From Vreelandella nanhaiensis (GTDB taxonomy: Bacteria > Pseudomonadota > Gammaproteobacteria > Pseudomonadales > Halomonadaceae), in the NCBI RefSeq assembly GCF_003990185.1, contig NZ_RZHF01000029.1, forward strand, positions 62,001-126,000: a stretch of DNA of 64,000 nt, given 5' to 3'. Under the pieces are notes generated by a model. That model saw only the letters and a list, made by a program, of their open reading frames with translations. It made no database searches and was not told the origin of the DNA. Shown here piece after piece: positions 21,854 to 41,185 of the stretch. Both the position numbers and the translations under genes were made by a program. Every line of letters starts with the position of its first letter. Within the stretch, counting starts at the first letter, position 1.

Positions 21854-22033
21854 CTACCCCTTGGGCCCTAATAGTAGCCAGGCGATCAAACCTACAAGAG
21901 GGAAGAACAGCAGCGCAAGTATCCACAACAATTTGGCGACGCCGCCTGCCGAGCTTTTAACTACCTTAACAATGGCCCAAACCAGAATGATGAGCCAGAT
22001 AAGCCCTAACAATCCACCTACTTCAATACCCAT
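21854..22033 (-). CDS. Small two-helix membrane protein, PLDc_N/superinfection-immunity-like
   Basis: 59 residues: MGIEVGGLLGLIWLIILVWA, a short link KVVKSSAG, then VAKLLWILALLFFPLVGLIAWLL ending GPKG. The pattern of two helices with W-I-L-x-x-L-F-F-P-x-x-G resembles the PLDc_N domain (cardiolipin synthase N-terminus) found as stand-alone small proteins. AAGGAA precedes the ATG. Last gene of a minus-strand run with the retropepsin-like and UMF1 genes. Confidence 0.75.
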   Translation of the reverse strand: MGIEVGGLLGLIWLIILVWAIVKVVKSSAGGVAKLLWILALLFFPLVGLIAWLLLGPKG

Positions 22034-22105
22034 AGCAGTTCCTTAGCGTGTTGGTATCCATGAGCTTCAAGCTAAGCACATCGCTGTCGTGTTCACAAGC
22101 ACCAG

Positions 22106-22615
22106 CTATGGGTCGGGCAGGCTTAATATCATTTCGCCGCTATGTATTTTAATGTTTAACAAATGCAAAAAGCTCATCCCTAACAACACTGTATTGTCAT
22201 CCATGCCTGGGCTAATAGAACCCTGCACGTTATTTACCCTTATGCCGCCCAGCGTCACTTCATCAAGCTCAGTAAGATTACCCTGTACACGCCCATTGGC
22301 TGTATTGAACCAGGCACTTCGCCCCCGCTTGAGACCTAGCTGCGCGGCTAGCTGGTCAGATACGGCCACATAGGTGGCACCGGTATCTAGCAAAAACGTA
22401 ACCGGCTCGCCGTTAATTTCTCCTGGCGCCTGAAAGTGCCCTGAGCGGTTACGTTTAAGTGTTACGGGACCGCCGTCAGACGCTGTTTGCACAATATGAG
22501 CATTAGGGCTTAGGATTTTCTCCATCCCTCCATCCAGCCACCACGTCCCCAGCCCAATGAGCAGTACCCAGAAGAGCATCATCATCACGATGCCGCCACG
22601 CTGCGCTGAATTCAT
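22106..22615 (-). CDS. Membrane-anchored retropepsin-like aspartic protease (clan AA)
   Basis: 169 residues from the ATG with GGGGAG upstream. One N-terminal membrane helix (IVMMMLFWVLLIGLGTWWL), then a single aspartic protease domain with the catalytic motif FLLDTGATYVAVS and a later ILLGMSFL-like stretch (VLLGMSFLHLL). Single-domain enzymes of this type act as dimers. Substrate unknown. It follows the UMF1 transporter by 23 bases, so the two are likely co-transcribed. Confidence 0.85.
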   Translation of the reverse strand: MNSAQRGGIVMMMLFWVLLIGLGTWWLDGGMEKILSPNAHIVQTASDGGPVTLKRNRSGHFQAPGEINGEPVTFLLDTGATYVAVSDQLAAQLGLKRGRSAWFNTANGRVQGNLTELDEVTLGGIRVNNVQGSISPGMDDNTVLLGMSFLHLLNIKIHSGEMILSLPDP

Positions 22616-22638
22616 TTTTGTGCTCCCCGTTTTGATGT

Positions 22639-23985
22639 TTAAGCGTTTTTCCAAACAATCGCGGCCTCACGGCCACGGCGCTCGTTAACGTTTGCACAAA
22701 TAAGCATGGCAATCACAAATAGTCCTACACATAAGAGAATAGACGCCTGCAAGCCAATCATCGCCTGCAGCACGCCCAGCATCACGATACCCAGCACGCC
22801 CGCCAGCTTGTTGGCCAAACCCCAGAAGCCAAAAAACTCAGCGGATTTCTCAAGCGGTGAAAATAATCCTACAAGCGCACGACTTGCCGACTGGCTGGAA
22901 CCTAGGCTAAGTCCCGCCAAGCAACCAACCACCAGAAAGACGTGCTGAGCTTGCCACTGCCAACCAAAACGCGTATTTGCCAAGGCCGCTATTTCCGGGG
23001 TTGCCCAGATGGCAATAATCGCCACTACCCACAGGGCAAGGGTCATCTGGTAGGTACGCTTGGCCCCTAAGCGGTCCTGGAGCCAGCCGAACCCCAGCGC
23101 CCCCGCCGCCGCAGTGACCTGAACGATAATAAACATTATGTTGCGGACACTTTCATCCCAGCCAATCACCTGAGCGCCATAAATAAACGCGAACGCAATA
23201 ATGATGTACACACCGGCCATGGAAAATAACAGGGAGATCAGAAACACCGTGAGGTCTCTGAAATAACGCAGTTCGTGCATGGTCGACTGCACGCGCTGAC
23301 GGGCAATACGCCAGTACGCCACGCCGGTGGGCTGTGGCGTGCCACGTTCTTTAAGCCATAAAAAGGTCGGGATGGCCGTAATCAGGAAAAAACCCGCCGC
23401 AAAAGGCCCTACCCAGCGTATACGCTCAAAGTTCTCCTCAGTAGCCTCACCTAGCGCCACAAGCGTAAAGCCCGCGGCGAACAGCCCTCCGATATAACCA
23501 AGTGACCAGCCGAACCCGGAAATCTTGCCAAGCTTATCCGGCGGGCCAAGCTCAGGTAGAAAAGCGGCGATAAAAGATTCGCCCATGGAATAGGCATAGT
23601 TGGAGATGATAATCAATATTAGCCCCATAACGACGTAGCCGGGGGCGACAAAATAGAGCATTGCGGTAGTGGCAACCGTGGCTAGATAACTCACCAGTAA
23701 AAAGCGCTTTTTTTCGGCCCGGTAGTCCATCACAGCGCCGCACAGAGGTGCGGTTATCACTACCATCAGGTAGCTGATAGCCAAAGCCAGGCTCCATAAG
23801 AAATTGGCCAGACGAAACCCATCGCCACGATCACCTACAATCACAGTGGTAAACAGCTCACCAAAGACCACCGTAATAATCAGTAGGGTATAGGCTTGGT
23901 TGGCAAAGTCGAACATGGCCCAACCGAAGATTTCGCGTCGCGAAGCGTAGGAAGGAGCAGCCTTTGCAGCGTCATTTAACAACAT
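22639..23985 (-). CDS. MFS transporter, UMF1 (Atg22-like) family
   Basis: 448 residues, 12 membrane segments. N-terminus GWAMFDFANQAYTLLIITVVF is characteristic of the UMF1 group, as are the motifs GESFIAAFLPELGPPDKLGKISGFGWSLGY (split over two helices) and SQSASRALVGLFSPLEKSAEFFGFWGL. Relatives include vacuolar amino acid exporters in fungi, but bacterial substrates are not established. AGAGAGACC precedes the ATG. Confidence 0.88.
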   Translation of the reverse strand: MLLNDAAKAAPSYASRREIFGWAMFDFANQAYTLLIITVVFGELFTTVIVGDRGDGFRLANFLWSLALAISYLMVVITAPLCGAVMDYRAEKKRFLLVSYLATVATTAMLYFVAPGYVVMGLILIIISNYAYSMGESFIAAFLPELGPPDKLGKISGFGWSLGYIGGLFAAGFTLVALGEATEENFERIRWVGPFAAGFFLITAIPTFLWLKERGTPQPTGVAYWRIARQRVQSTMHELRYFRDLTVFLISLLFSMAGVYIIIAFAFIYGAQVIGWDESVRNIMFIIVQVTAAAGALGFGWLQDRLGAKRTYQMTLALWVVAIIAIWATPEIAALANTRFGWQWQAQHVFLVVGCLAGLSLGSSQSASRALVGLFSPLEKSAEFFGFWGLANKLAGVLGIVMLGVLQAMIGLQASILLCVGLFVIAMLICANVNERRGREAAIVWKNA

Positions 23986-24071
23986 GCGGGTCTCTCTTGT
24001 AGGGACAGCAAACAGGGACTACAAACCTGACCATTAGCGATCAATAGTGATAGTAAGAATATGGCTAAAGC

Positions 24072-24099
24072 AAACGCCCGGCCTATAGCCGGGCGTTTT
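24072..24099 (-). terminator. Terminator of the BCCT/small membrane protein unit
   Basis: AAACGCCCGGC (24072-24082) pairs with GCCGGGCGTTT (24088-24098), loop CTATA. It lies 24 bases past the stop of the 54-residue gene and ahead of the UMF1 promoter, so the BCCT unit ends here. Confidence 0.88.
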
Positions 24100-24122
24100 A
24101 ACTAGCGTTACAACAGGTTGGC

Positions 24123-24287
24123 CTACAAAAGCCAATGTGCCAAAACAGCCGATAGACCCACTACCAATGCGGTGACGACGGCGACCGTCACCACCCGATC
24201 AAGCCAGCGGTCTAGCCAACGGTCAAATGTGGCTCCCTTGGGTTGACGTCGTGTCGCACCGTGACGCCCCTGCCGAGCCATCAGCAT
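24123..24287 (-). CDS. Small single-helix membrane protein downstream of BCCT carrier
   Basis: 54 residues: a basic N-terminus (MLMARQGRHGATRRQPKG), a repeated RWLDRWLDR, then one hydrophobic helix (VVTVAVVTALVVGLSAVLAHWLL). GGAG is 5 bases before the ATG. It starts 43 bases after the BCCT stop and ends 24 bases before a strong terminator, so it is probably the second gene of a two-gene unit. No family recognised; a role as an accessory subunit of the carrier is inference. Confidence 0.6.
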   Translation of the reverse strand: MLMARQGRHGATRRQPKGATFDRWLDRWLDRVVTVAVVTALVVGLSAVLAHWLL

Positions 24288-24330
24288 CCCCACTCCATGT
24301 GTCCGCTCCTGAAGGCCTGATTAATCCCAT

Positions 24331-25956
24331 TTAGCTATTAATGCGCCGATTGATGATATTTGGCGCACGACGCAAACGCTCCTCTTCGCCCATCTGTTCG
24401 GCCTCAAAAGCATCGGCCCCAACAGGCGTTTCGCCATGTCGACGATAAAGCTGAGTCAGCATCGCCTTGCGGTCGGCACGCAACTCACGTACCAGCACTA
24501 TTACCATCATATACAGAATGAAGGTAAACGGTAGTGCCGAAAGCACCGCTGCTGACTGAAGCCCTGAAAGACCGCCAGCGACAATCAGCGTCAGACAGAT
24601 AGCTGCAATCAGCACGCCCCAGATGATGCGTTTATAGAGAGGTGGGTTGATCGAGCCATTATCGGTCATCTGCGCCACAATATACGAGGCGGAATCAGCC
24701 GATGTCACCAGAAAGATAAAGATCAATATCATGGCAACTACAGAAAGCACGCCGGAAAACGGCATTAGCTCAAACATTTCAAACAGAGCGACCGTAATAT
24801 TGTCTTGGGTAGCCGCTGCCAGGCCAACGTTATCACCGTTAAGTTCCATATTCAGCGCCGCGCCGCCAAACACGCCAATCCACAGGCAAGCCAACAGCGG
24901 CGGCACCAGCAGTACGCCAAACACATACTCCTTGATCGTACGTCCCCGCGACACCCGCGCCACAAACGTCCCCACAAACGGCGACCAGGCAATGACCCAG
25001 GCCCAGTAGAAGATCGTCCAGCTGCTGGCCCACTCATTATCACTATAGGGAGAAATTCGCAGGCTCATGCCGATAAAGTTTTGCAGGTAATCACCGATCC
25101 CCAAGGTAATGGTTTCAAGTATCGCGATCGTCGGTCCGGTTACCAGCACATAAAGCATCAGCCCGATGCAGAGCGCCATATTCAAGTTGGAAAGACGCTT
25201 GATGCCTTTATCCAGTCCCGACCAGGTTGATAGCATATAAGCGCAGAACATCACCAAAAGAATGATGAATTGCCAAAACCCGTTTTCAGGCAGGCCGAAA
25301 ACGGCATTCAACCCGCCATTCATCTGCAGCACGCCCAGCCCCAAAGAGGTTGCCACGCCCATGACAGTCGCGACAACGGCGAACACATCAAGCCACGAGG
25401 CATAAGGACGAATACGGGGATTTTTGGCAGTAACCGATGAGAGCACCGATGAGACCAGGCCCGCCTGGCCTTTGCGAAACTGGAAGTAAGCAATGATAAG
25501 TCCCACTACCGAAAACGCCGCCCACTGGTGAATGCCCCAGTTAAAATAACTGTACTGAATGGCGTAACGTGCAGCCGCTTCCGTTTCTGCTGTTACATCA
25601 CCGTAAGGCGGTTCAATATAGTGGGTCATAGGCTCTGCCATGCCATAAAACACTAGCCCGACGCCAAACCCTGCCGCCAACAGCATGCTGACCCAGGAAA
25701 AGAAGCTGTAGTTAGGTGTGCTGTCCTGTGGCCCTAGGCGTACCTTTCCATATTTGCTGCACGCCAGGCCAAACAGAAACACGACAAAGCCAAAGACCGA
25801 GAACAGATAAAACCAGCCAAACAGTCGTGTCACGGTTTCCAGTGCCGCCTCGGCAGCATTGCCGAAACCCTCTGGAAAGGCGGCTCCTACCACCACCAAG
25901 CTAAAAATGACCACAGTCGATGCAATAAAAACCGACTTTCCTCCATGATTTGTCAT
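24331..25956 (-). CDS. BCCT-family betaine/carnitine/choline-type transporter
   Basis: 541 residues, 12 membrane segments. TM3 holds GFGVG (96-100), the GxGxG form seen in sodium-coupled members rather than GxGxD of choline carriers. TM4 has NWGIHQWAAF (W140, W145, F148). The family signature in TM8 is SWTIFYWAWVIAWSPFVG (312-329) with valine 321 where most members have a second tryptophan. The short C-terminal tail lacks the long basic osmosensing extension of BetP. Likely an osmolyte or related zwitterion importer; the substrate is uncertain because of the altered aromatic box. Confidence 0.88.
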   Translation of the reverse strand: MTNHGGKSVFIASTVVIFSLVVVGAAFPEGFGNAAEAALETVTRLFGWFYLFSVFGFVVFLFGLACSKYGKVRLGPQDSTPNYSFFSWVSMLLAAGFGVGLVFYGMAEPMTHYIEPPYGDVTAETEAAARYAIQYSYFNWGIHQWAAFSVVGLIIAYFQFRKGQAGLVSSVLSSVTAKNPRIRPYASWLDVFAVVATVMGVATSLGLGVLQMNGGLNAVFGLPENGFWQFIILLVMFCAYMLSTWSGLDKGIKRLSNLNMALCIGLMLYVLVTGPTIAILETITLGIGDYLQNFIGMSLRISPYSDNEWASSWTIFYWAWVIAWSPFVGTFVARVSRGRTIKEYVFGVLLVPPLLACLWIGVFGGAALNMELNGDNVGLAAATQDNITVALFEMFELMPFSGVLSVVAMILIFIFLVTSADSASYIVAQMTDNGSINPPLYKRIIWGVLIAAICLTLIVAGGLSGLQSAAVLSALPFTFILYMMVIVLVRELRADRKAMLTQLYRRHGETPVGADAFEAEQMGEEERLRRAPNIINRRINS

Positions 25957-26279
25957 ATAACCACCCTGTTAGATGAGCACTTGATCGGAAACGACACATA
26001 AACTTTTATAACCCTAGCCCTTCATCAATATTTATGTACAGTTTTCGTTATTTTGAGGGTGTATTGCGTCTTTAAATCGTTCGTCTACTACTAGTTATCG
26101 TCCTCTGACCTAATCCGAGTTTTATAAAATGCTTTCTTGATACCCATGCTGCTGTTCAGCCTAAGAGTTCAAACAAGATCCTTCCCCTACCGGCTACCTA
26201 AGCAAGATACGCGCCAGCTTGCAGTGAACTTGCCCGGTCAACTGTGTTCCAATGGGGGCAAACGATGATGGAGGCTTTT
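25957..26279. other. Divergent intergenic region, BCCT carrier / 118-residue gene
   Basis: 323 bases of AT-rich sequence carrying the promoters of the divergent genes. The minus strand shows a TATAAA hexamer near the carrier, but I cannot place a convincing -35. No small gene, clear operator or repeat is seen. Confidence 0.5.
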
Positions 26280-38988: not shown

Positions 38989-39504
38989 ATGTCAGAAGCA
39001 GCACAAACGGCCCTGCCAGGACAGCACGAGCTGTCAATGACCGTACTCATGACGCCCGACATGGCCAACTTCAGCGGTAAAGTGCACGGTGGGGCCATCC
39101 TCAAGAAGCTCGATGAAGTCGCCTATGCATGTGCCAGCCGCTACTCTGGCCATTACGTGGTGACTCTCTCGGTCGACCAGGTACTCTTCAAGCAGCCCAT
39201 TCACGTCGGTGAGCTGGTCACGTTTCTTGCCTGCGTGAACCATGTGGGTCGCTCATCCATGGAAATTGGCATCAAAGTAGTGGCTGAGGATATTCGCAAC
39301 AAACTTATTCGCCATACCAACAGCTGCTATCTGACCATGGTGGCCGTTGACCCGGATGGTAAGCCAGCAAGTGTCCCACCGCTGGCGCTAACCACCCCCA
39401 TTCAGAAACTTCGCTTTGAGAAGGCAGCACTGCGCAAGAAGCACCGCAAGCAGGCCGAGCAGGAAGAAAAAATTACCCAGCAGCACTACCAAACGCAAGC
39501 TTAA
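38989..39504 (+). CDS. Acyl-CoA thioesterase, hotdog fold (YciA/ACOT-like)
   Basis: 171 residues. MTPDMANFSGKVHGGAILKKLDEVAYACASRYSG holds the hotdog helix with the N-x-x-G-x-V-H-G-G motif; SVDQVLFKQPIHVGELV follows. Hydrolyses acyl-CoA thioesters in the cytoplasm. The C-terminus has a 25-residue basic/glutamine-rich extension (ALRKKHRKQAEQEEK). AGGA precedes the ATG. Confidence 0.9.
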   Translation: MSEAAQTALPGQHELSMTVLMTPDMANFSGKVHGGAILKKLDEVAYACASRYSGHYVVTLSVDQVLFKQPIHVGELVTFLACVNHVGRSSMEIGIKVVAEDIRNKLIRHTNSCYLTMVAVDPDGKPASVPPLALTTPIQKLRFEKAALRKKHRKQAEQEEKITQQHYQTQA

Positions 39505-39582: not shown

Positions 39583-40587
39583 ATGCCCATCAGGCGGCGC
39601 TACCCACAACTCCCCCGGCCCGTTGAGTACGCGCATATTGGCTGGGATTTACTGATTCTTGTCGCGGTAGTGCTTAATCTAGGGCTGTTGCTCTTTGATT
39701 CCCTATTTCTGATCGGGCCTCTTAACCAGGCCCTGGCAAGCGTTGCCCCCGGTTTTTACGGATTCTACGATAGTGAAATCCATAGCCGTTTCTTTACGAT
39801 CGACCTTTTCTTCATCGGCTTTTTTGTGGCTGATATTCTGCTGGGCTGGGCGGTCGCTATTGCAGAGCGGCGCTATCACCGCTGGTTTTTCTATCCCTTT
39901 GTACACTGGTACGACGTACTGGGCTGTATTCCGCTAAGCGGTTTCCGCCTGCTGCGGGTACTGCGTGTGGTGTCGCTGCTTCATCGGCTGCACCGCCTGC
40001 GCATTATCAATATTACACACTGGTCAATATATCGGTTCTTCTTCAAGTACTACGATATCCTGATGGAAGAACTTTCCGACCGTATTGCACTGCGGCACCT
40101 GGGCAACGTACAGCAGCAGATTCTCTCCAGCGATTCTCTCACCGAGCGGGTGATCGACCGGGTAATCATGCCGCGCAAGGCGGCACTGATTAGCGAAATA
40201 GTGCAGCGCCTGGAGAGCACCGTAGGTGAGGCGTACCAGCTTAATCGCGCCTCCACGATGGCGGCAATCGATAACCTGGTCAGTCGTACGCTGCGCGAAA
40301 GCCCCGAGATACAGCGCCTGCACCGCCTGCCCATGGGCCAGATCGCGGCCAGCGCCGTGCAGGCCTCCATCAGTGGCGTTGCCCAGCGGCTGGTGGACGA
40401 ACTGGCGCTGGGCATTCACTCCCCCGAATTCAGGCAGCTGGTTGAGCGCACCGTGGAAAGCGGCTTTGACAGCTGGCTAACGGTTGATGAAAGCAGCAAT
40501 AGAATTACCGAACTCGTGCTGTACGACATCCTGGAAATGCTCAAAGAGCAAGTCAATCGTCAACGCTGGAAAGACCGCTATGAATAG
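39583..40587 (+). CDS. Voltage-sensor-like membrane protein without a pore domain
   Basis: 334 residues; AAGGAGG directly before the ATG. Four hydrophobic segments resemble S1-S4 of voltage-gated channels: S1 about 21-43, S2 about 70-92 with acidic D74 and D84, S3 around HWYDVLGCIPLSG with D111, and S4 (121-140) reading FRLLRVLRVVSLLHRLHRLR with arginines every third residue. No S5-pore-S6 follows: there is no selectivity-filter-like motif or further membrane helix. Instead residues 150-334 are a soluble, mostly helical domain. Such proteins are often labelled ion transporter. The stop overlaps the LysE start, suggesting co-expression. Function unknown. Confidence 0.7.
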   Translation: MPIRRRYPQLPRPVEYAHIGWDLLILVAVVLNLGLLLFDSLFLIGPLNQALASVAPGFYGFYDSEIHSRFFTIDLFFIGFFVADILLGWAVAIAERRYHRWFFYPFVHWYDVLGCIPLSGFRLLRVLRVVSLLHRLHRLRIINITHWSIYRFFFKYYDILMEELSDRIALRHLGNVQQQILSSDSLTERVIDRVIMPRKAALISEIVQRLESTVGEAYQLNRASTMAAIDNLVSRTLRESPEIQRLHRLPMGQIAASAVQASISGVAQRLVDELALGIHSPEFRQLVERTVESGFDSWLTVDESSNRITELVLYDILEMLKEQVNRQRWKDRYE

Positions 40588-41185
40588 CGAGTGGCTAATA
40601 CTTGGGCCAGCAGCCCTTTATATGATGTCGATGACCTTAACGCCCGGGCCTAACAATGTGATGCTCACCGCGTCAGGCGCCAATTTTGGCTTTAAGCGTA
40701 CAGTGCCGCATATGGCAGGCATTCTAGGCGGCTGCTTTTTTCTGTTTTCCAGTATTGCCCTGGGGCTTGGCGTGCTGTTTGAGCGTTTTCCAGCCATTCA
40801 GACAGGGCTACGCTGGGTAGGCAGCGCTTATCTGCTTTATCTCGCTTGGAAAATTGCCAGTGCGCCGCCGCCCAATTTAAAGGGCGACGCGCACAGCGTA
40901 CCGCTCACCTTCTGGCAGGCGGCCGCGTTTCAGTTCGCTAACCCGAAGGCCTGGGTCATGGGTCTGGCGCTCATGGCGGGCTTTCTGCCGGAAAGCGGCT
41001 CGGCGGTTATCAATGCGCTGATACTGGCAGGGTTTGCAGAACTGATCGCCATGCCCTGTCTGGCCGTGTGGGCGGGCTTTGGCATGGCGATTGGTCACTG
41101 GATTAAAAGCGACACTGGCTGGCGGGCTTTCAATGTCATCATGGGGCTGCTGACCGCCGCCTGCGTCGTACTGATTTTGCGTTAG
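40580..41185 (+). CDS. LysE/RhtB-family exporter
   Basis: 201 residues, six membrane segments. MSMTLTPGPNNVMLTASGANFGFKRT is the family signature; a second conserved segment reads AAFQFANPKAWVMG. Exports amino acids or related metabolites. The ATG overlaps the upstream stop by 8 bases (40580-40587). Its stop overlaps the opposing I78 gene stop by 4 bases. Confidence 0.9.
   Translation: MNSEWLILGPAALYMMSMTLTPGPNNVMLTASGANFGFKRTVPHMAGILGGCFFLFSSIALGLGVLFERFPAIQTGLRWVGSAYLLYLAWKIASAPPPNLKGDAHSVPLTFWQAAAFQFANPKAWVMGLALMAGFLPESGSAVINALILAGFAELIAMPCLAVWAGFGMAIGHWIKSDTGWRAFNVIMGLLTAACVVLILR

Follow-up and report, generated by a model that had tools for sequence, protein, structure and literature searches.

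A bacterial family of probable voltage-sensor domains without a pore, encoded beside minCDE in the Moraxellaceae

Introduction

Can a bacterial protein carry a voltage-sensor domain (VSD) with no channel to gate and, if so, on what might such a domain act? These questions are raised by an open reading frame of Vreelandella nanhaiensis in a 64,000-nucleotide stretch of contig NZ_RZHF01000029.1 (positions 62,001 to 126,000), the whole of which was analyzed and is referred to here as the window. A reading made from the sequence alone had proposed that the protein joins four membrane segments resembling S1-S4 of voltage-gated channels to a large soluble domain, that this arrangement is little described in bacteria, and that membrane potential could be coupled to metabolite export through an adjoining LysE-type exporter.

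Voltage sensors that lack a pore have been described in eukaryotes. Bacterial examples appear to be described even less than that reading had supposed: the excerpted text of a 2023 review states that the VSDs known in prokaryotes are all accompanied by a pore, as verified by database searches (PMC10377628), and the excerpted text of another review notes that prokaryotic counterparts of Hv1 and VSP have not been reported (PMC6768053). The titles and opening abstract lines of the open-access papers retrieved mentioned neither a bacterial pore-less VSD protein nor a link between a VSD and the Min system.

Results

The gene and its parts

An aaggagg sequence resembling a ribosome-binding site precedes the ATG at 39583 of the gene, called here the VSD gene, and its stop codon (TAG, 40585 to 40587), as the sequence-only reading had stated, overlaps the start of the LysE gene (ATG at 40580); the overlap is 8 bases long. 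Conservation was measured in alignment A2, which was built from 160 matches plus the window protein and thinned at about 84% identity; omission of rows shorter than 300 aa or containing X left 82, and L143 was also left out, giving 81 rows with 20 to 80% identity to the Vreelandella window protein. The features, with counts from A2, are as follows.

38989 to 39504, + strand: 4HBT gene (acyl-CoA thioesterase type), upstream of the VSD gene
39583 to 40587, + strand: coding sequence of the predicted pore-less voltage-sensor-domain protein, 334 aa; 100% match in its own genome, homologues found
39634 to 39711, + strand: S1, residues 18 to 43; D22 in 80/81, N32 in 71/81, D39 in 78/81
39787 to 39867, + strand: S2, residues 69 to 95; D74 in 73/81, F77 and W89 in 81/81, D or E at 84 in 81/81
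39868 to 39936, + strand: S2-S3 linker and short S3, residues 96 to 118, where conservation is highest; HWYD, with W109, Y110 and P117 in 81/81 and D or E at 111 in 81/81
39937 to 40002, + strand: S4, residues 119 to 140; R122, R125, R128 and R135
40024 to 40584, + strand: C-terminal helical domain, residues 148 to 334, cytoplasmic as judged by charge; contains no membrane-like segment
40066 to 40083, + strand: EELSDR motif, residues 162 to 167, in the first helix after S4; E162 in 81/81
40327 to 40338, + strand: LPxG turn of the output domain, residues 249 to 252; P250 and G252 in 81/81
40580 to 41185, + strand: LysE-family exporter (Pfam LysE), a local neighbor of the VSD gene and not a general partner

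The ratio of basic (K and R) to acidic (D and E) residues is 4/1 in the N terminus, 0/2 between S1 and S2, and 3/0 between S2 and S3, a pattern that fits cytoplasmic termini for the predicted topology. The EELSDR motif is a candidate for the element that would couple sensor to output. Elsewhere in the window, positions 22001 to 26000 differ from most of the stretch in a marked AT skew (0.15 to 0.22) and a GC skew of about -0.12.

Conservation of the voltage-sensor region

The acids in S2 and at D111 in S3 to which the sequence-only reading had drawn attention are family features, and the same is true of the S4 arginines: R122, R125 and R128, which fall at every third position as that reading had noted, and R135 are retained in 80, 81, 81 and 80 of the 81 members, respectively. 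Three positions ahead of the S2 acid, residue 81 is aromatic (F, Y or W) in 71 members and L in 10; where S1 column 32 is not N, it is D in 7 members (L224, L225, L226, L227, L232, L239 and L240) and S in 3. Across these 81 diverse members, S2 to S4 form the most constrained region of the protein (mean column entropy of 0.98 bits in the S2-S3 linker, 0.48 in S3 and 1.26 in S4), and the output domain is less conserved (mostly 2.2 to 2.5 bits; 1.52 in its first helix, residues 156 to 182).

The S4 motif is a poor guide when it is taken alone. When the 22 residues of S4 were shuffled 200,000 times, a strict RxxRxxR was retained in 9,891 cases, so that the motif alone could arise by chance, and motifs of this type occur in 6 of the 104 window open reading frames of at least 100 aa. 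The voltage-sensor region is judged to be real because its charges are conserved over 81 diverse members.

Homology and predicted fold

The relationship to voltage-gated channels can be recognized by profile comparison. Residues 21 to 143 of the window protein matched positions 4 to 119 of the 241 in the Pfam Ion_trans profile (E = 1.3e-4; 21.7 bits, which falls below the curated cut-off of 25 bits), a match limited to the S1-S4 half. Ion_trans was also the most frequent weak Pfam match in alignment A1, being found in 16 of the 22 members at E <= 1; at this threshold it was unmatched in the other 6 and in L210, L223, L226 and L238, as it was in the Acinetobacter baumannii homologue at E <= 0.1. 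The family profile was compared with two K+ channels that bear TVGYGD and come from genomes in which the VSD family is also present (G015 and G192); 60 columns of S2-S4 aligned at 35% identity, with a probability of 96.9% and E = 1.4e-10, and the reversed control gave 0.5%. These results bear out the four S1-S4-like segments of the sequence-only reading. NCBIfam held no model for the window protein at E <= 10; among solved structures searched by sequence, the window protein had no match at E <= 10, and the four matches to the family profile were all at chance level.

An AlphaFold2 model built from 81 sequences (mean pLDDT, 84.4; pTM, 0.55) has helices at residues 12 to 43 and 70 to 95, a short S3, a helix at 119 to 138, and helices from 148 to the end; the last of these contain no membrane-like segment and agree with the earlier description of about 185 soluble, mostly helical residues. 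The structural comparison with VSDs that had been proposed gave a divided result. In VIA-align, compact matches were obtained to the VSD of the plant K+ channel GORK (9j0z; 24% identity over 105 aa at 3.1 A; Z, 8.6) and to NavMs (5hvd; Z, 8.2; 4.1 A over 99 aa), and the top 14 rows were all channels of the voltage-gated superfamily, many of them spanning the whole model at an rmsd above 9 A. On the other side, the designed helical bundle 8gl3 reached a Z of 8.2, near the channel rows, and a Foldseek search of the PDB with the full model returned nothing at E <= 0.001. Because a designed bundle scores so near to the channels, fold alone is not decisive; the predicted fold agrees with a VSD, and the claim is carried by sequence evidence.

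Absence of a pore

The sequence-only reading had seen neither pore helices nor a selectivity filter after S4, and this holds throughout the family. The post-S4 maximum of 19-residue Kyte-Doolittle hydropathy had a median of 0.85 and a highest value of 1.52 among the 81 members, compared with at least 1.93 around S1, so that no segment after S4 reached S1-like hydropathy in any of them. The filter pattern T[VILA]G[YF]G was found in 0 of 81; a bare TVG occurs in 7 of the 81 C-terminal regions and lies, in the window protein, at residue 213 within a predicted helix. By hydropathy and filter pattern, therefore, the S5-P loop-S6 unit of voltage-gated channels was found in none of the 81 members. 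A pore missed in the homologues through a frameshift, the objection foreseen earlier, is unlikely, since 81 open frames from many species agree. It is concluded that S1-S4 together with the helical domain almost certainly constitute a family of pore-less VSDs, a family that contradicts the statement, in the excerpted text of the 2023 review, that all prokaryotic VSDs carry a pore (PMC10377628).

Output domain and shorter relatives

The HMM searches suggested earlier for the C-terminal domain assigned it to no family, and no curated family for it was found in Pfam or NCBIfam. DUF445 was rejected: it was a weak Pfam match in 2 of 22 members (best E, 0.01), and hhalign against four DUF445 proteins gave 2%, with 0.4% for the reversed control. 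Structural matches of residues 148 to 334 to long helices such as those of a chemoreceptor, SH3BP5 and Tc toxin were set aside as generic helical matches, so that the domain was given no named fold. TetR_C_11 matched 3 of the 22 A1 members (best E, 6.3e-4).

The output domain also occurs alone, as a 185-aa open reading frame in one genome (L211:4851-5408, G753), with no voltage-sensor remnant upstream. A second variant, L242 (261 aa; L242:3709-4494, G513), resembles the main family in having a pore-less VSD and a helical C terminus, and matched it at 98.3% (E = 1.7e-14) in one profile comparison; it differs in that its S1-S2 loop and output domain are shorter and in that it does not lie beside min genes. 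The stand-alone and shortened versions hint that the output domain is a separate module. Proteins of the L242 type were matched in 5 of 229 class genomes, strongly only in G105 (L323), and three of the weak matches were the main-family gene itself. Directly upstream of the family gene, L204, L205 and L211 encode proteins of 172 to 186 aa (L204:5639-6196, L205:3803-4318 and L211:5457-6011) that are alike by eye, none of which matches Pfam at E <= 0.01.

Distribution

The VSD gene was found in 65 of 81 Halomonadaceae genomes, and a match to it was found in 62 of 81 Moraxellaceae genomes, representing 12 of 16 genera. At the order level, 96 of 390 genomes had a profile match, including one genome with the short relative only (G513) and one with the output domain only (G753); with weak or partial matches counted, there were 11 of 369 genomes in the class sample and 13 of 299 in the phylum sample. 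When 84,980 species genomes were scanned by pattern, 478 stretches were confirmed, and counts for named relatives given below rest on the best 80 of these; Vreelandella populi (94%) is among the nearest of the 80. The family is also scattered in other Gammaproteobacteria. In a gene tree of 74 rows, the window protein and 12 other Halomonadaceae rows group together, apart from L222 and L228, which are nested inside. Both come from another family of the order, and their position is the one that horizontal transfer would give.

A second family of genomes, f2, is called Moraxellaceae because it includes Acinetobacter: its locus L283 shares 90% identity with a protein of A. baumannii. The A. baumannii homologue (WP_001181648.1), which is encoded upstream of minC (L331:5815-6861, NZ_CP043459.1; also L329), is annotated either as preprotein translocase subunit SecA or as a hypothetical protein, and the SecA annotation is likely to be a misannotation. 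An A. baumannii gene, GO593_10640, is credited with "structural similarities to ion transporters" and grouped with ftsY/ffh in an excerpt of a published study (PMC11975115); it may or may not be the VSD gene, and it is given no weight here.

LysE and other neighbors

The proposed coupling of membrane potential to LysE export did not survive the neighborhood survey, in which the LysE partner was not general. Among the named relatives (best 80 of 478), LysE lies within 200 bp of the VSD-gene stop in 18 and farther off in 27 (26 at about 1.5 kb and one at 2.6 kb), and each of these 27 has a MocR-type regulator between the two genes, encoded on the opposite strand; in L057 the regulator consists of GntR and aminotransferase domains (Pfam). 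In the other 35, neither LysE nor the regulator was found in the stretch of locus covered. Since the regulator intervenes in 27 loci and neither gene was found in 35, LysE pairs with the MocR-type regulator. LysE adjacency also occurs in 2 of a set of 40 loci (L059 and L068), and a search of 44 loci from other families turned up no LysE homologue. It is thus very improbable that the protein is a voltage-controlled regulator of the adjacent exporter: the overlapping stop and start codons in the window and the 18 adjacent loci speak for this role, but 62 of the best 80 named relatives and the 44 other-family loci speak against it. In one A. baumannii record, a gene for the LysE-family protein RhtC lies further downstream of the VSD gene, on the opposite strand.

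Other neighbors vary. The 4HBT gene is directly upstream (less than 400 bp away, on the same strand) in 52 of the best 80 named relatives, and conserved upstream neighbors in the Halomonadaceae are a thioesterase, a short-chain fatty acid transporter and a MATE transporter. Other clades have an amidase, a PilZ-DUF1631-GGDEF-EAL protein, a response regulator or exonuclease III. Among the loci listed, no neighbor recurs in all clades.

Linkage to minCDE in the Moraxellaceae

In 60 Moraxellaceae genomes (the 62 with matches minus G1103 and G1116, which are cut at contig ends), minC lies directly downstream of the VSD gene on the same strand in 54, covering 11 of 12 genera; minD lies within 2.5 kb in 52, and minE comes next in most of the loci that extend far enough. 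The six genomes without this arrangement are G1130 and the five of genus g558, one of which is truncated by a contig end. The annotated order in A. baumannii NZ_CP043459 is acyltransferase, VSD gene, minC, minD and minE, with gaps of 15 bp before and 121 bp after the VSD gene; Pfam confirmed MinC domains and a ParA/MinD-type ATPase, and no terminator-like site was found on the + strand between the VSD gene and minC. Adjacency to minC persists in g552, g557 and g554, although no acyltransferase gene was found immediately before the VSD gene in these.

This conserved linkage was seen only in the Moraxellaceae. Among 233 loci assigned to other families, the single match to min genes (L176) is really a Moraxellaceae locus (G509), and in the Vreelandella window genome minD is on a different contig from the VSD gene. 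Within the Moraxellaceae, moreover, the VSD gene and MinD did not co-occur consistently: 17 of 19 genomes with no VSD-gene match keep a clear MinD, and a clear MinD is present in only 2 of the 6 genomes in which the VSD gene lies away from minC (two of the four genomes with the VSD gene but no clear MinD are 83 to 84% complete). This pattern counts against an obligate role for the VSD gene in the Min system.

Discussion

The best explanation of these data is probably that the locus represents a bacterial family of pore-less voltage sensors that signal through a helical cytoplasmic domain; that the protein itself senses voltage is equally probable. As a VSD, S1-S4 would sit in the inner membrane and have its two ends in the cytoplasm, and by homology a change in potential would move R122, R125 and R128, then R135, past the putative charge-transfer residues D/E84 and D/E111. 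This movement may be passed through the S4-proximal helix, with its EELSDR motif, to the cytoplasmic domain, which would then bind or release a partner. That partner may be the Min division-site system in the Moraxellaceae, where it is the leading candidate, and would not specifically be LysE in the Halomonadaceae.

Two other readings of the protein need to be considered. It might be an Hv1-type proton (or cation-leak) channel, in which the VSD conducts and the C-terminal domain serves only in assembly or regulation. Like Hv1, the family has a VSD without a pore and a helix after S4, here a long one; its S4 arginines fall at i, i+3 and i+6, and position 131, which comes next in the series, is mostly small or polar (S in 57/81); and the seven members with Asp at S1 column 32, a position that we equate provisionally with the Hv1 selectivity Asp (human D112), are all Moraxellaceae. 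The S4 signature of Hv1, however, is RxWRxxR, which is found in S4 in 0 of 81 members (the two matches both lie after S4); column 124 holds Leu in 77 members and Phe in the other 4, and column 32 is predominantly Asn. A conducting VSD would also leave the large conserved output domain unexplained, and the excerpted texts of reviews report no prokaryotic Hv1 (including PMC10377628), so that this reading is quite unlikely. The other reading is that a former voltage sensor has been reused as a four-transmembrane anchor or scaffold and no longer senses voltage. The shortness of S3 and the ability of the output domain to stand alone (L211) would suit an anchor, but the gating-charge residues are among the most conserved, in members down to 20% identity, and a mere anchor has no need of four S4 arginines with acidic partners. 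We consider an anchor unlikely, and a sensor that signals through its helical domain remains the preferred reading.

For the Moraxellaceae, it must also be asked whether the gene order reflects function. Because the VSD gene lies directly upstream of minCDE, Min is the leading candidate partner there, and it would be a natural client since MinD localization in Bacillus subtilis depends on the electric potential, according to an excerpt reporting the work of Strahl and Hamoen (PMC3588084). The chances are about even, though, that the adjacency is only a matter of shared transcription or gene-order inertia, with no functional link; its observation in one family only, the independent loss of the VSD gene and MinD, and the frequent conservation of the upstream acyltransferase all point this way. 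Against inertia stands the persistence of the arrangement in 11 of 12 genera; among these is the deep g552/g557 branch, in which no acyltransferase was found immediately upstream. On this evidence it is possible, and we suggest it tentatively, that the protein serves the Min system in the Moraxellaceae, sensing or not. The fuller proposal, that the Moraxellaceae protein, including that of Acinetobacter, reports membrane potential to MinCDE and thereby lets the cell's electrical state govern the choice of division site, is doubtful.

The family shows VSDs separated from pores in many bacterial species and joined to an output domain for which no curated family was found in Pfam or NCBIfam. Its members are small bacterial proteins on which VSD biophysics could be studied, and they are candidate receptors through which membrane potential could act as a signal inside the cell. 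It is a known puzzle that MinD localization is sensitive to membrane potential, and the conserved linkage to minCDE makes this directly testable.

The family can be placed among known systems by what it shares with each. With the bacterial six-transmembrane K+ channels (Ion_trans, TVGYGD) it shares a homologous S2-S4 region, in which WIDLLACIP corresponds to WYDVLGCIP, but it has a helical domain in the place of S5-P-S6. Hv1 is similar in its pore-less VSD and in the helix after S4, and differs in that the present family has no RxWRxxR in S4 and possesses a large extra domain. In Ci-VSP, the VSD likewise carries a cytoplasmic domain where a channel would have its pore, but the bacterial proteins carry no CX5R-type phosphatase motif (HCX5R and CX5R[ST], 0 of 81 members). 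The nearest analogue in design, as far as the excerpted description goes, is TMEM266, a human protein of unknown function with S1-S4, no pore and a cytoplasmic C-terminal region; TMEM266 is Hv1-like, and its C terminus past the coiled coil is predicted to be disordered, whereas the bacterial family has a predicted helical domain (PMC6392501).
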